Below, piece after piece: positions 3,699-6,791 of a stretch of DNA of 27,378 nucleotides. The notes under the pieces are model-generated. The model saw only the letters and a program-made list of their open reading frames with translations, was not told the DNA's origin and ran no database searches. Both the position numbers and the translations under genes were made by a program. Within the stretch, counting starts at the first letter, position 1. Each line of letters begins with the position of its first letter. Source of the stretch: an uncultured Nitrosomonadales bacterium (GTDB taxonomy: Bacteria > Pseudomonadota > Gammaproteobacteria > Burkholderiales > Gallionellaceae); contig CAIZNF010000259.1 in assembly GCA_903934275.1 (NCBI GenBank), positions 1-27,378 of the forward strand. Direction: 5' to 3'.

Positions 3699-6203
3699 AT
3701 GCGGTTAAATTTGCCAGTTTCCAACATCGAATTCGCGTTGCCGGACGGTGTGGTGATTGTTACCAAGACCGACCTCAAAGGGGTTATTACCTACTGCAAC
3801 AATGCGTTTGTTGAGCTAAGCGGGCTGAGCCGCGAGAAAATCATCGGCTCGCCGCACAACATAGTGCGCCATCCCGACATGCCGCCCGAGGTGTTCGCCG
3901 ACCTGTGGAAAACCATTAAATCCAATAAACCTTGGCAAGGTGTAGTTAAAAATAGGCACAGTGACGGCAGCTTCTACTGGGCGATTTCCAATGTCACCCC
4001 ATTGCGGGAAAAAGGCCAAACTACCGGTTACGTGGCATTCCGTTACAAGGCCACGCAGGAGCAAATCGACGACGTATCAGCTGTTTACAAAGAACTTCGC
4101 GAAGGCTCGTCCAACCTGCGCGTAGAGGAAGGCGATATCATCCGGGTAAATAACCCCTTGCTGCGCTGGATGGCTTCTGTCAGCGTTAAAATTCGGCTGC
4201 TGGCGCTGATGGCGATGCTGCTTGGCACGCTGATCGTTATAGGCATTTTCAATCTAAATGTTGCGGCGCAAGCACACAGTCGCGCCGTAGAAAGCCTAGC
4301 TACCTCCAGCACACAAGCTTATGCGCTGGATACTGCACGTATTGCAGAAACAGCTTTCAAGGAGCAATTACAAACCTGGAAAGATATTTTAATCGAAGGC
4401 CATAATGCGGCTTTATTCAAGCAGCTCCTTATAAAATTCGACCAACAAGGGGATGAAGTCGAGCAAAAGCTGGCGGGGCAGTTAAAACCGATCATTCAGC
4501 AATTGGGGCTGTCTACCGATCCGGTGGATGCACTGTTGGAGTCACATACCCAACTGGTCGAGACATACCACGCGGCGCTAAAATCTTTTGATGTCAACAA
4601 GCCGGAAACTGGCCAGATTGTCGATAAGCTTGTCGGCAACATCGATCAAGAAATGATCGCAAGTTTTGAGGCGGTTGTTACGAAAATCCGTGAGGAACAG
4701 CTTCATGGCCTGGGAGAAACGAACGAGGCGCTGGATAAGTCCTACCGCTTTCAACGTGATCGTTCCATTGAAATATTGGCGGCTGCGGCATTGGCAGGGC
4801 TGCTGTTGTCCGGTTGGTTCATCGTTGGAATTTTAAGACCGATACGCCGCACCGGCAGCAAATTGAACAGGGTTGTCGAATTACAACAACAATTCCTCGA
4901 AAAAATCCTGAAGCTTGAAGAATACGGCGACCGCATCGATGAAGAGCAGCGTGTAGGCAGTTTCATCATGGCACGGATGACCAATATGCAGGACCAACTC
5001 ACCCCCTATATACACCGCTATACGAAATCGGCCGATCTTCTCAGTGGCGATATCCTGATCGCAGCTGAAACACCAAACAACATCGTGCATGTCCTGCTGG
5101 CGGATGCGGTGGGTCACGGGCTTACCGCCGCGATAAACGTGTTGCCGCTGTGCCAATCTTTTTACGATTTGACGAGCAAAGGATTTTCCATCGAGGAAAT
5201 TGCCGTCGAACTCAATTTGCTGGTTAACAAATTTATGCCAGTGGATCGCTTTGTTTCTGCTGTATTGGTTTCCATCAACCGCCAAGCGCAGATCATCGAG
5301 GTATGGAATGGCGGAATTCCCGCACCGCAGTTATTCAATCGCGACGGCCGCCTGTTACATAGCTGCATTTCCACGAATTTGCCGCTGGGAATATTGCCAG
5401 GCGAAAATTTTTCCGCCAAGCCTGAGGTTTTTTATTATGCAGAAGATTGCCAATTGTGTATGTTTTCGGATGGTTTTCTGGAAGCTTGTTCTCCGCAAGG
5501 CGAGTACTTCGGCAATGGGCGCGTTGTCGAATTATTCGGCAAAACAGCACAGGATTCCCGCTTTGAGATGCTGATTGCGGAACTTGATAGGCATTTGCAA
5601 GGGCAGCGCGCGCATGACGATATTTCGCTGGCATTGGTGGATATATCGGCAGAGATCGACACCAAAGCATTGTCTATTCACCCGGATTCCCATAAGGCGA
5701 CGGAGAAAAGCGATGACTGGCGAATTGTGGTCAGCTTGGGTGCAAATGAGCTGAAATACCTCGATGTCGTACCCCTGCTCACCCAAATTGTCGCCAAAAT
5801 TCACATCACGAGGGAGCATCACTCCGCGCTGTTCCTGATTCTATCCGAGCTGTTCAATAACGCACTCGATCACGGTGTATTGCAACTTGATTCAAGCATC
5901 AAGCTGGGACATGACGGGTTTGATAAATTTCTTCAATTGCGCGATGCGCGTATGCAGGAACTCAACAGTGGAAGAATCGAAATTGAAATTGAGAGAATAT
6001 TTATTGAAGACAAGCAATCCGTAAAAATTCGCGTTGCCGACAGCGGAAACGGATTTGATTACGATGCACTTCAAGCAACTGTAGATAACCAGGTTAAATT
6101 GACCCAGCATGGCAGAGGCATTACTTTGATGAAAAGTATGGCATACAAGCTGGAATATTCGGGGAAAGGAAACGAGGTTTCGGCATATTACATTTGCGCT
6201 TGA
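3699..6203 (+). CDS. Membrane PAS(Aer-type)-PP2C/SpoIIE phosphatase-HATPase protein
   Basis: 834 residues. Residues 15-118 form an Aer-type PAS domain: ITYCNNAFVELSG, then the Aer-like PHNIVRHPDMP (52-62), W79 and VKNRHSDGSFYW, which suggests FAD-based redox sensing. Helix TM1 spans about 164-186 and TM2 about 357-379. Between them is a roughly 170-residue helical, probably periplasmic domain. A short linker (about 380-430) may be a degenerate HAMP or coiled coil. A PP2C/SpoIIE phosphatase follows (about 440-650) with candidate metal-binding aspartates D451, D469 (LADAVGHG), D591 (SDGFLEA) and D640/D641. A GHKL ATPase (about 675-834) has an N-box with E717, N720 and N721, G1 DSGNGFDY (781-788) and HGRGITLM (804-811), like RsbW-type anti-sigma kinases. 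It probably controls an anti-anti-sigma (STAS) protein by opposing phosphatase and kinase activities. No STAS or sigma gene is nearby. The ATG is preceded by AAAGGAA. Domain calls are firm; the signal and target are inferred. Confidence 0.87.
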   Translation: MRLNLPVSNIEFALPDGVVIVTKTDLKGVITYCNNAFVELSGLSREKIIGSPHNIVRHPDMPPEVFADLWKTIKSNKPWQGVVKNRHSDGSFYWAISNVTPLREKGQTTGYVAFRYKATQEQIDDVSAVYKELREGSSNLRVEEGDIIRVNNPLLRWMASVSVKIRLLALMAMLLGTLIVIGIFNLNVAAQAHSRAVESLATSSTQAYALDTARIAETAFKEQLQTWKDILIEGHNAALFKQLLIKFDQQGDEVEQKLAGQLKPIIQQLGLSTDPVDALLESHTQLVETYHAALKSFDVNKPETGQIVDKLVGNIDQEMIASFEAVVTKIREEQLHGLGETNEALDKSYRFQRDRSIEILAAAALAGLLLSGWFIVGILRPIRRTGSKLNRVVELQQQFLEKILKLEEYGDRIDEEQRVGSFIMARMTNMQDQLTPYIHRYTKSADLLSGDILIAAETPNNIVHVLLADAVGHGLTAAINVLPLCQSFYDLTSKGFSIEEIAVELNLLVNKFMPVDRFVSAVLVSINRQAQIIEVWNGGIPAPQLFNRDGRLLHSCISTNLPLGILPGENFSAKPEVFYYAEDCQLCMFSDGFLEACSPQGEYFGNGRVVELFGKTAQDSRFEMLIAELDRHLQGQRAHDDISLALVDISAEIDTKALSIHPDSHKATEKSDDWRIVVSLGANELKYLDVVPLLTQIVAKIHITREHHSALFLILSELFNNALDHGVLQLDSSIKLGHDGFDKFLQLRDARMQELNSGRIEIEIERIFIEDKQSVKIRVADSGNGFDYDALQATVDNQVKLTQHGRGITLMKSMAYKLEYSGKGNEVSAYYICA

Positions 6204-6230
6204 CTGTGAGTTATTCCATTTCTCTATCAA

Positions 6231-6302
6231 CCTAAGCCGGACGAGCCGGAACCAAAATGTAGGTCGGGCTCTGCCCGACATGGTGGGCAAAGCCCGCCCT
6301 AC
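6231..6302. repeat. REP pair (BIME-like), right copy of the inverted pair
   Basis: Positions 6231-6288 are the inverted counterpart of 1-59. Two REP units face each other: one begins with GTAG at 6259 and folds at 6263-6279 (7-bp stem, loop TCT); the other ends with CTAC at 6299-6302 and folds at 6283-6297 (6 bp including one G-U). It lies between the convergent PAS/phosphatase gene and the S10 cluster and may end the plus-strand transcript. REP elements are spread by RAYT transposases; none is encoded in this window. Confidence 0.75.
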
Positions 6303-6437
6303 GGTTTCGTTGAAAAATTCTTGTCACGTTTTGACATCATTTGACTGGCAAGTGACTAAAACCGGCAGTTGAAGCCTGTGGAGCTCGATTCACCGGACGA
6401 ATGATCCGCTACCGGTTTTATAGGATACAAAAGCAAA

Positions 6438-6461
6438 CGCCCTGCGGCTAGCCGCAGGGCG
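6438..6461 (-). terminator. Intrinsic terminator of the S10 cluster
   Basis: A perfect 11-bp inverted repeat (arm CGCCCTGCGGC, palindromic centre) lies 30 bases after the rpsQ stop. On the minus strand it is followed by a T-rich tract (GTTTGCTTTTG). This indicates that the long operon ends after rpsQ instead of reading on into rplN. The rest of 6303-6437 shows no gene. Confidence 0.8.
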
Positions 6462-6491
6462 CGTGTGAGACGACAGCTTATGCAACCAATA

Positions 6492-6791
6492 TCAGGCTGC
6501 TTGTGCCTTCTCAAGCAGCTTGGACACACGCCAGCTCTTGGTTTTTGCAATCGGGCGGCATTCTTCAATCATTACCACATCACCCGCATGGAACTCATTG
6601 GCTTCATCGTGGGCGTGATATTTTTTGGAAACACGAATAATCTTACCCAGTAACGGATGTTTTACTTTGCGTTCGACCAAAACCGTGACAGTTTTATTCA
6701 TTTTGTCACTCGTTACAGTACCGGTTAGGGTACGTTTCAGTTTGTGATCGCTCACCGCTTTGGCATCGCACGTTGGTTTTGAATCGCTCAT
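6492..6791 (-). CDS. rpsQ: 30S ribosomal protein S17
   Basis: 99 residues. S17 is a primary 16S rRNA-binding protein of the small-subunit body with an OB fold. The core [14 protein letters not shown], the KHPLLGK loop and the C-terminal [11 protein letters not shown] are diagnostic. Compared with E. coli S17 (84 residues) it has an N-terminal extension of about 14 residues. I chose the ATG at 6791, which overlaps the rpmC stop as TGATG; a GTG one codon upstream (6794) is possible. It is the last gene of the operon and is followed by a terminator, whereas rplN normally comes next in related bacteria. Confidence 0.95.

Follow-up and report, generated by a model that had tools for sequence, protein, structure and literature searches.

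We analysed a 27,378-nucleotide stretch of DNA (hereafter the window), contig CAIZNF010000259.1 of an uncultured Nitrosomonadales bacterium of the family Gallionellaceae (assembly GCA_903934275.1, genome G000 below), and describe one of its genes, located at positions 3699 to 6203 on the plus strand, on which all features of the protein lie. The open reading frame (ORF) starts with ATG, encodes 834 amino acids (aa) and is free of internal stops. Ten further full-length copies translated from other genomes are likewise open over 834-836 codons, so the ORF is no frameshift artefact. As indicated by the ORF, Pfam searches and alignment to a methyl-accepting chemotaxis protein (MCP), the gene as a whole joins the sensor half of a chemoreceptor to a phosphatase-kinase of the HsbR/CrsR type. 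The N-terminal Aer-type PAS domain (residues 13-118, positions 3735-4052; Pfam, PDB match and residue check) is followed by a first membrane helix (residues 163-186, 4185-4256), a probable periplasmic region without a confident Pfam family but homologous to a chemoreceptor encoded in a chemotaxis (che) locus (residues 187-356, 4257-4766) and a second membrane helix (residues 357-379, 4767-4835). The fusion junction lies at residues ~385-395 (4851-4883), where the MCP alignment stops at residue 394 and matches to the output half often begin at 386-391. Next come a helical linker (residues 396-445, 4884-5033), which in the alignment consensus is like that of receiver-type proteins and has no HAMP match, a SpoIIE/PP2C phosphatase domain (residues ~446-655, 5034-5663; D451, D469, D591, D640 and D641) and an RsbW-type GHKL kinase domain (residues 694-829, 5778-6185; E717, N720, N721, DSGNGF at 781-786 and GRGI at 805-808), both enzymes being identified by Pfam and by their residues.

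A preliminary description of this DNA had proposed that two opposing enzymes with intact residues sit behind one Aer-type membrane sensor, and our results support this. The PHNIVRHPDMP motif at residues 52-62 was confirmed by residue check and PDB match, and the two membrane helices around some 170 residues were recovered as hydropathy peaks in 19-residue windows (~163-186 and ~357-379). All catalytic residues that had been named for the phosphatase (D451, D469, D591, D640/641) and the kinase are present at their positions. The three expected families scored above the curated Pfam cut-offs: PAS_3 at residues 31-113 (52.9 bits), SpoIIE at 463-648 (106.4 bits, E 2.4e-30) and HATPase_c_2 at 694-829 (48.7 bits, E 9.3e-13). 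No Pfam match was found in the protein for a receiver domain (Response_reg), the N-terminal domain of the HsbR type, for the MCP signalling domain (MCPsignal), which couples to CheA/CheW, or for a C-terminal STAS (anti-anti-sigma) domain in the same chain. A HAMP domain after the second membrane helix, suggested by the HAMP-like stretch DEEQRVG, was rejected, as Pfam gave no HAMP match in the 834-aa protein at E<=1 and a like stretch is present in receiver-type proteins. An Rfam scan gave 0 matches, a PHROGs scan one family of unknown function only (E 0.00022), and counts from a promoter and terminator scan were no different from the range for shuffled sequence.

Among PDB sequences, the window protein is matched best by the aerotaxis receptor of E. 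coli (31cj, E 1.7e-37; 8dik, E 6.9e-36), and a 72-row family profile matched 31cj at E 3.2e-55. Alignment to the E. coli Aer structures is gapless across PHNxVRHPDMP. In E. coli Aer, flavin adenine dinucleotide (FAD) is reported to be contacted by H53, R57, W70, N85 and R115, with G28 stabilising the fold (PMC9668731), and the predicted contacts as well as the stabilising glycine are all present in the window PAS domain. Conservation was assessed in 69 full-length proteins of 800-880 aa, the window's included, drawn from the best 120 of 485 matches (8000 candidates scored). G28, H53 and N85 are kept in 69/69 of these, W70 in 67, R57 in 65 and R115 in 62. We infer from these residues that the window PAS domain would bind FAD and follow the redox state of the respiratory chain. 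The kinship to chemoreceptors extends over the whole sensor half: residues 1-394 share 158/396 identities (40%; three gap positions, E 3e-100) with the 901-aa MCP L061_02 of a related genome, which carries PAS, HAMP and MCPsignal domains (Pfam) and is encoded in a similar che locus. The periplasmic region is 35% identical over 155 residues to the same region of this chemoreceptor, and for the segment comprising both transmembrane (TM) helices and the periplasmic region, all matches at E<=0.01 among the genes compared are to full-length copies, apart from one to an MCP. In a PAS tree (65 of 67 PAS rows; 8/56 branches starred), 27 full-length rows group together (95, starred) and join soluble PAS forms (86), apart from 22/23 MCP rows, so that no particular donor receptor is singled out. 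Further, 123 of 72,556 plasmid records match the window protein, 0/123 of them covering at least 80% of the query; the ten plasmid matches listed comprise three to the output half (391-831) and seven to the sensor half, six of the latter seven being annotated as MCPs.

From residue ~388 on, the window protein is homologous to receiver-SpoIIE-HATPase proteins, and the stretch ~400-434 resembles their linker. Identity of the output half to 16 Pseudomonas loci, a set that leaves P. aeruginosa HsbR itself outside, is 29.6-33.3% over 381-385 aligned residues. A P. putida locus encoding a STAS protein, a receiver-PP2C-kinase and an Hpt protein matches the hsbA, hsbR and hptB gene set described for Pseudomonas (PMC5085249). 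By this homology and gene order, the output half is of the HsbR/CrsR type. Two proteins found in the searches bear corresponding JGI names, P0049 being a 'HptB-dependent secretion and biofilm response regulator' and P0145 a '... anti anti-sigma factor'; both contigs are listed at 12,217 bases. In a class-wide sample of 369 genomes with two candidates scored per genome, 46 other genomes match at E<=1e-60, each over the output half alone (query starts 370-441, frames of 560-714 aa). A PDB search with the output half gave SenB as best match (E 0.0096). The window genome also encodes three receiver-PP2C proteins, whereas its sole HATPase_c_2 match above cut-off is the window protein. A general rule of a single kinase facing several phosphatases was rejected, since 3/14 genomes with the full architecture (G096, G074, G144) have one SpoIIE match only. 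RsbW-sized frames (160-164 aa) occur in 2/14 of these genomes, and further above-cut-off matches lie in frames of 208-1294 aa.

Both enzymes look kept in the window protein. Within the 69-protein set all five PP2C aspartates are present in 69/69, as are the kinase residues E717 and N720, with N721 kept in 63/69 and D781 in 59/69. Across 10 pairs from the 5 genomes of the window clade, the median ratio of nonsynonymous to synonymous substitution rates (dN/dS, NG86) was lowest in the kinase (0.095) and PP2C (0.130), followed by PAS (0.155), the linker (0.173) and TM-periplasm-TM (0.198). In five STAS-adjacent genomes the medians were 0.124 (kinase), 0.169 (PP2C), 0.152 (PAS), 0.094 (linker) and 0.302 (TM-periplasm-TM). 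As dS is high (means 0.59-1.06), these values are rough. The periplasmic region is the least conserved: its identity is 53-58% when compared with five STAS-adjacent relatives and 47% with G145, a sixth, where PAS reaches 75-82% and 68%, respectively.

The preliminary description had also raised the question of how many genomes share this architecture. We found it in full in 14/158 family genomes, this one included, all belonging to the window's genus (1/15 genera). The architecture is real and, as far as searched, conserved within one genus. Locus roles were assigned by BLAST (E<=1e-6 per role, plus 35% identity for neighbours). Eight STAS-adjacent loci (L074-L081) carry cheR, cheD (unseen in L078), cheB, the STAS gene and the window-type gene, in that order. 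In seven of the eight, flhB is next after the gene, while the eighth contig stops ~700 bases on; the arrangement in relatives thus runs cheR-cheD-cheB-STAS-gene-flhB-flhA. Profiles support CheR, CheD, CheB, STAS and FlhB at one locus, with FlhA, FlhF and FliA above cut-off. A neighbour there, which we take to be FlhG, has sub-cut-off MinD-type matches only. Other family genomes fill the same locus differently: some have a receiver-PP2C-kinase (L062-L065), others a PAS-PP2C-kinase that is soluble, a HAMP-PP2C-kinase in the membrane, or a tandem of these PAS and HAMP forms (Pfam for L063, L064 and L082; others by BLAST). A REC-GGDEF gene directly follows the receiver type in two relatives (L062 by Pfam, L065 by BLAST). 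In L060, L061, L086 and L088, the tandem HAMP/PAS forms are separated from STAS by an HDOD gene and a second CheD-like gene (HDOD identified with Pfam in L087). The output tree, a quick tree of 78 of 142 output rows with SH-aLRT support only and 20/67 inner branches open, mixes these sensor forms (9 changes vs the least possible 3). An origin of the window gene in a simple fusion of the soluble PAS form with the 700-aa HAMP form next to it was rejected based on the segment matches and this tree.

A scan of named genomes, in which the best 80 of 482 loci were confirmed, gave 78 receiver-type and 2 tandem loci; as confirmation was against a receiver-type sequence and near kin may be left out, this is no census of sensor types. 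The 80 loci include Ferriphaselus, Sulfuricella, Azospira, Zoogloea, Vogesella and 16 Pseudomonas records. In 77/80 of them the first role-gene upstream is STAS, with CheB beyond STAS in 46.

In the window itself the downstream neighbour differs: rpsQ follows the gene, where four close relatives (G112, G126, G144, G088) have flhB. The S10 ribosomal cluster ends at this rpsQ (junction region 6203-6495), which may reflect a rearrangement or a contig join. A REP-like palindromic stretch lies between the gene and rpsQ (6260-6304), and a terminator-like hairpin on the minus strand after rpsQ (6437-6462). In a letter-pattern search, an RplN-like frame was seen near rpsQ in G062 and G131 (L253, L254) and none in the flanks of G000, G144, G126, G112 and G088 (L248-L252; L250 stops early).

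The STAS subfamily, with its DSSALGM motif, is present in 14/14 genomes with the full architecture (E<=1e-12) and directly upstream of the gene in 9/14. The other 5/14 encode the STAS protein elsewhere, and in four of them (G112, G126, G144, G088) its gene closes cheR-cheD-cheB on another stretch. The closest copy in the window genome, on contig C91, is 91, 88, 87 and 84% identical to the copies of these four relatives. Its motif YLDSSALGML is found in all 13 Pseudomonas STAS proteins aligned (13 of 16 loci). Based on the nine adjacent genomes and on sequence, this STAS protein is most likely the partner of the window protein. Five STAS genes of the same subfamily lie within ~60 kb of one contig in G088 (C23:74756-134160). 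FlgM and FliA of the window genome are encoded on one contig together with FlhA- and FlhF-like genes.

At the sequence level, the analysis demonstrates the domains with their residues, both parent families, the junction at ~385-395 and the STAS gene with its DSSALGM motif. Since the output half is of the HsbR type and the sensor half is like that of a che-locus chemoreceptor, the protein can be read as an HsbR-type switch whose receiver was swapped for a chemoreceptor sensor half. We consider it likely that it is a membrane-anchored partner switch of the HsbR/CrsR type which, through its Aer-type sensor half, sets the phosphorylation of a STAS protein. The PAS domain, presumably with bound FAD, would read the redox state, perhaps joined by a periplasmic signal, and the signal would travel through the second membrane helix into the helical linker. 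The linker might pair the PP2C domains, favouring dephosphorylation of STAS, or relax, leaving the kinase to phosphorylate it. In a proposed model, PP2C dimers are informed through helical linkers by sensor domains that can be exchanged (PMC12143880), and the HAMP-free linker of the window protein, resembling that of receiver-type proteins, fits this model. STAS would then swap partners as HsbA does. Activated HsbR is reported to dephosphorylate HsbA, which then binds FlgM and frees FliA; phosphorylated HsbA binds the diguanylate cyclase HsbD, and HsbR also binds RpoS (PMC6482189). On this model, unphosphorylated STAS would bind FlgM and free FliA (swim) and phosphorylated STAS would activate a cyclic di-GMP (c-di-GMP) enzyme (settle), CheA being bypassed in both cases. 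By analogy, we infer an action on FlgM-FliA, on c-di-GMP enzymes or on both, and the protein would probably serve a swim-or-settle decision of an iron-oxidising, Gallionella-type bacterium through a small partner protein.

Among known systems, E. coli Aer is not known to have a periplasmic domain, CrsR has a receiver domain of its own, and Rv1364c of Mycobacterium and RsbP of Bacillus are not known to have a membrane module. The window PAS domain shares with E. coli Aer the FAD-pocket motif, aligned without gaps and with the same numbering there, whereas it differs from Aer and Aer-type MCPs in having no MCP signalling domain, the output being replaced at ~385-395. Closest in its output is the Pseudomonas HsbR-HsbA system (with HptB and HsbD), in which PP2C and kinase/anti-sigma domains share one chain, the STAS gene lies directly upstream and the setting is chemotactic and flagellar (PMC6482189, PMC5085249). 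HsbR, however, combines these domains with a receiver (PMC6482189) that is fed by HptB, while the window protein has a membrane PAS-chemoreceptor sensor half and no receiver. CrsR of Shewanella, with phosphatase and kinase/anti-sigma domains, and CrsA offer a che-locus setting with a STAS-type partner (PMC6482189, PMC9855816): the che1 locus holds crsR and crsA alongside cheR1, cheD1 and cheB1 as well as the gene of the receptor Aer2, and Che1 is presumed to connect to CrsR and to the control of RpoS (PMC9855816). There, Aer2 with its haem PAS domains is a protein of its own (PMC9855816), whereas in the window protein the receptor part is fused in. Rv1364c and RsbP resemble it in the PAS input to a PPM phosphatase, and Rv1364c also has an anti-sigma domain; it differs in carrying its own anti-anti-sigma domain in the chain (PMC12143880), which the window protein has not, and its sequence match was non-significant (PDB 3ke6, E 0.77). 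SiaA is likewise a membrane PP2C, but HAMP precedes its PP2C domain and the kinase SiaB is a separate protein (PMC7647112).

Several observations weigh against the reading as a redox-sensing HsbR-type switch. In the PAS domain, K27 and L69 differ from E. coli Aer, and of the 69 homologues 7 lack R115 and 4 lack R57. The STAS gene of the window genome is unlinked to the window gene, and as it is cut by the end of contig C91, nothing upstream is visible and no che gene is in view. Its downstream neighbour encodes a CPA2-type antiporter (TIGR00932 above cut-off), unlike that of the four relatives. A convergent neighbour shared with these relatives was rejected: in BLAST, the C91 neighbour is unrelated to their 602-654-aa frames, which are mutually related, so the STAS protein of G000 is matched by sequence alone. 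Two more STAS paralogues in G000 could be the partner instead. One, on C708 (L051:4552-6191), is 77% identical to the C91 copy and precedes a DUF3391-HD_5 gene, and the other, on C389 (L053:473-2846), is 51-53% identical to it and follows an EAL-CBS-GGDEF gene; paralogues beside c-di-GMP-type genes are also a possible lead towards a STAS-c-di-GMP link. The FlgM/FliA output is taken from the Pseudomonas precedent. Finally, the ATP site of the kinase is wrecked in 9/69 homologues (P0059, P0063-P0070) that retain the PP2C aspartates. Among these nine, D781 and G785 are lost in 9/9, G805 in 8/9 and G807 in 7/9, and the three that were scanned (P0063, P0069, P0070) gave no Pfam HATPase match at E<=1. 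Single kinase-site changes occur in P0058 (D781G) and in P0057, P0060 and P0062 (R806M). Five kinase-dead proteins included in the output tree group together (94). A search with P0069 of the 158 family genomes gave best matches of at most 50% identity and did not find the kinase-dead branch itself there. This side branch looks to have turned phosphatase-only.

Such proteins, which keep the phosphatase and lose the kinase ATP site, would fit a kinase fold that acts mainly as a binding domain for anti-sigma function or STAS docking, as in CrsR, with a regulated phosphatase and release of a sigma factor such as RpoS upon STAS binding. Both CrsR and HsbR bind RpoS (PMC6482189). We regard this as unlikely for the window protein: its ATP residues are kept, as they are in most homologues (D781 in 59/69), and in the window clade none of the five segments has a median dN/dS below that of the kinase (0.095), although the linker falls below the kinase in the other clade (0.094 vs 0.124). 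The intact residues and low dN/dS of both enzymes could also fit the internal competition raised in the preliminary description, with both enzymes always on and one input tipping a futile cycle between them. Input to HsbR is described as activating the phosphatase while repressing the kinase (PMC5085249), which makes an either/or switch likelier and this second alternative more doubtful still. Equally doubtful is a true signal in the form of a periplasmic ligand, read by the ~170-residue region, with PAS mainly structural or a modulator. This region is common to the window protein and the che-locus MCP, and a sister form with HAMP and without PAS occupies the same locus in some genomes; it is, however, the least conserved segment (dN/dS 0.20 and 0.30 in the two clades), while G28, H53 and N85 of PAS are invariant in the 69 proteins. 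An assembly artefact or chimera in this fragmented genome (722 contigs, 5.7% contamination), for which the adjoining rpsQ in place of the relatives' flhB might speak, is extremely improbable. The same full-length protein occurs in 14/158 family genomes and throughout the 69-protein set, and a contig join beyond 6203 would leave the ORF untouched, so for the protein an artefact is refuted.

In conclusion, the preliminary description was right in combining an Aer-type PAS membrane module with both enzymes, but not in treating Rv1364c as the exception to separate enzymes: phosphatase and kinase in one chain are already known from HsbR, CrsR and the dual kinase/phosphatase SypE (PMC6482189, PMC8256260). 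New to the searches made is the chemoreceptor input to such a chain. We found no chemoreceptor-phosphatase-kinase fusion described in titles and abstract openings of the open-licence literature, as far as its incomplete listings reach, and the paper describing the genomes of Gallionella ES-2 and Sideroxydans ES-1, which tallies their aer and che genes, has a main text without the words 'phosphatase' or 'sigma' (PMC3770913). With a receptor half and a CrsR/HsbR-type half in one protein, the gene is a 'Rosetta stone' which opens the connection of chemoreceptors with partner switching to direct tests, and it offers a natural example of the sensor-domain exchange on PP2C phosphatases via helical linkers that has been proposed (PMC12143880). 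A broader reading, plausible but on balance slightly doubtful, is that an aerotaxis receptor was rewired from steering to deciding. Its CheA-coupling half would have given way to a serine phosphatase-kinase, and the redox state would control how far an HsbA-type STAS protein is phosphorylated, and hence FlgM/FliA activity and c-di-GMP turnover, in one step without a phosphorelay, serving a swim-or-stay choice of Gallionella in opposing gradients of O2 and Fe(II). The soluble PAS and HAMP forms at the same locus would then have been rewired in parallel, and the kinase-dead branch would have gone further, to receptors that act as phosphatases alone. In the fusion a known signalling switch has a new, direct input, and it provides a concrete candidate for the coupling of redox state to the decision to swim or to stay in microaerophilic iron oxidisers.

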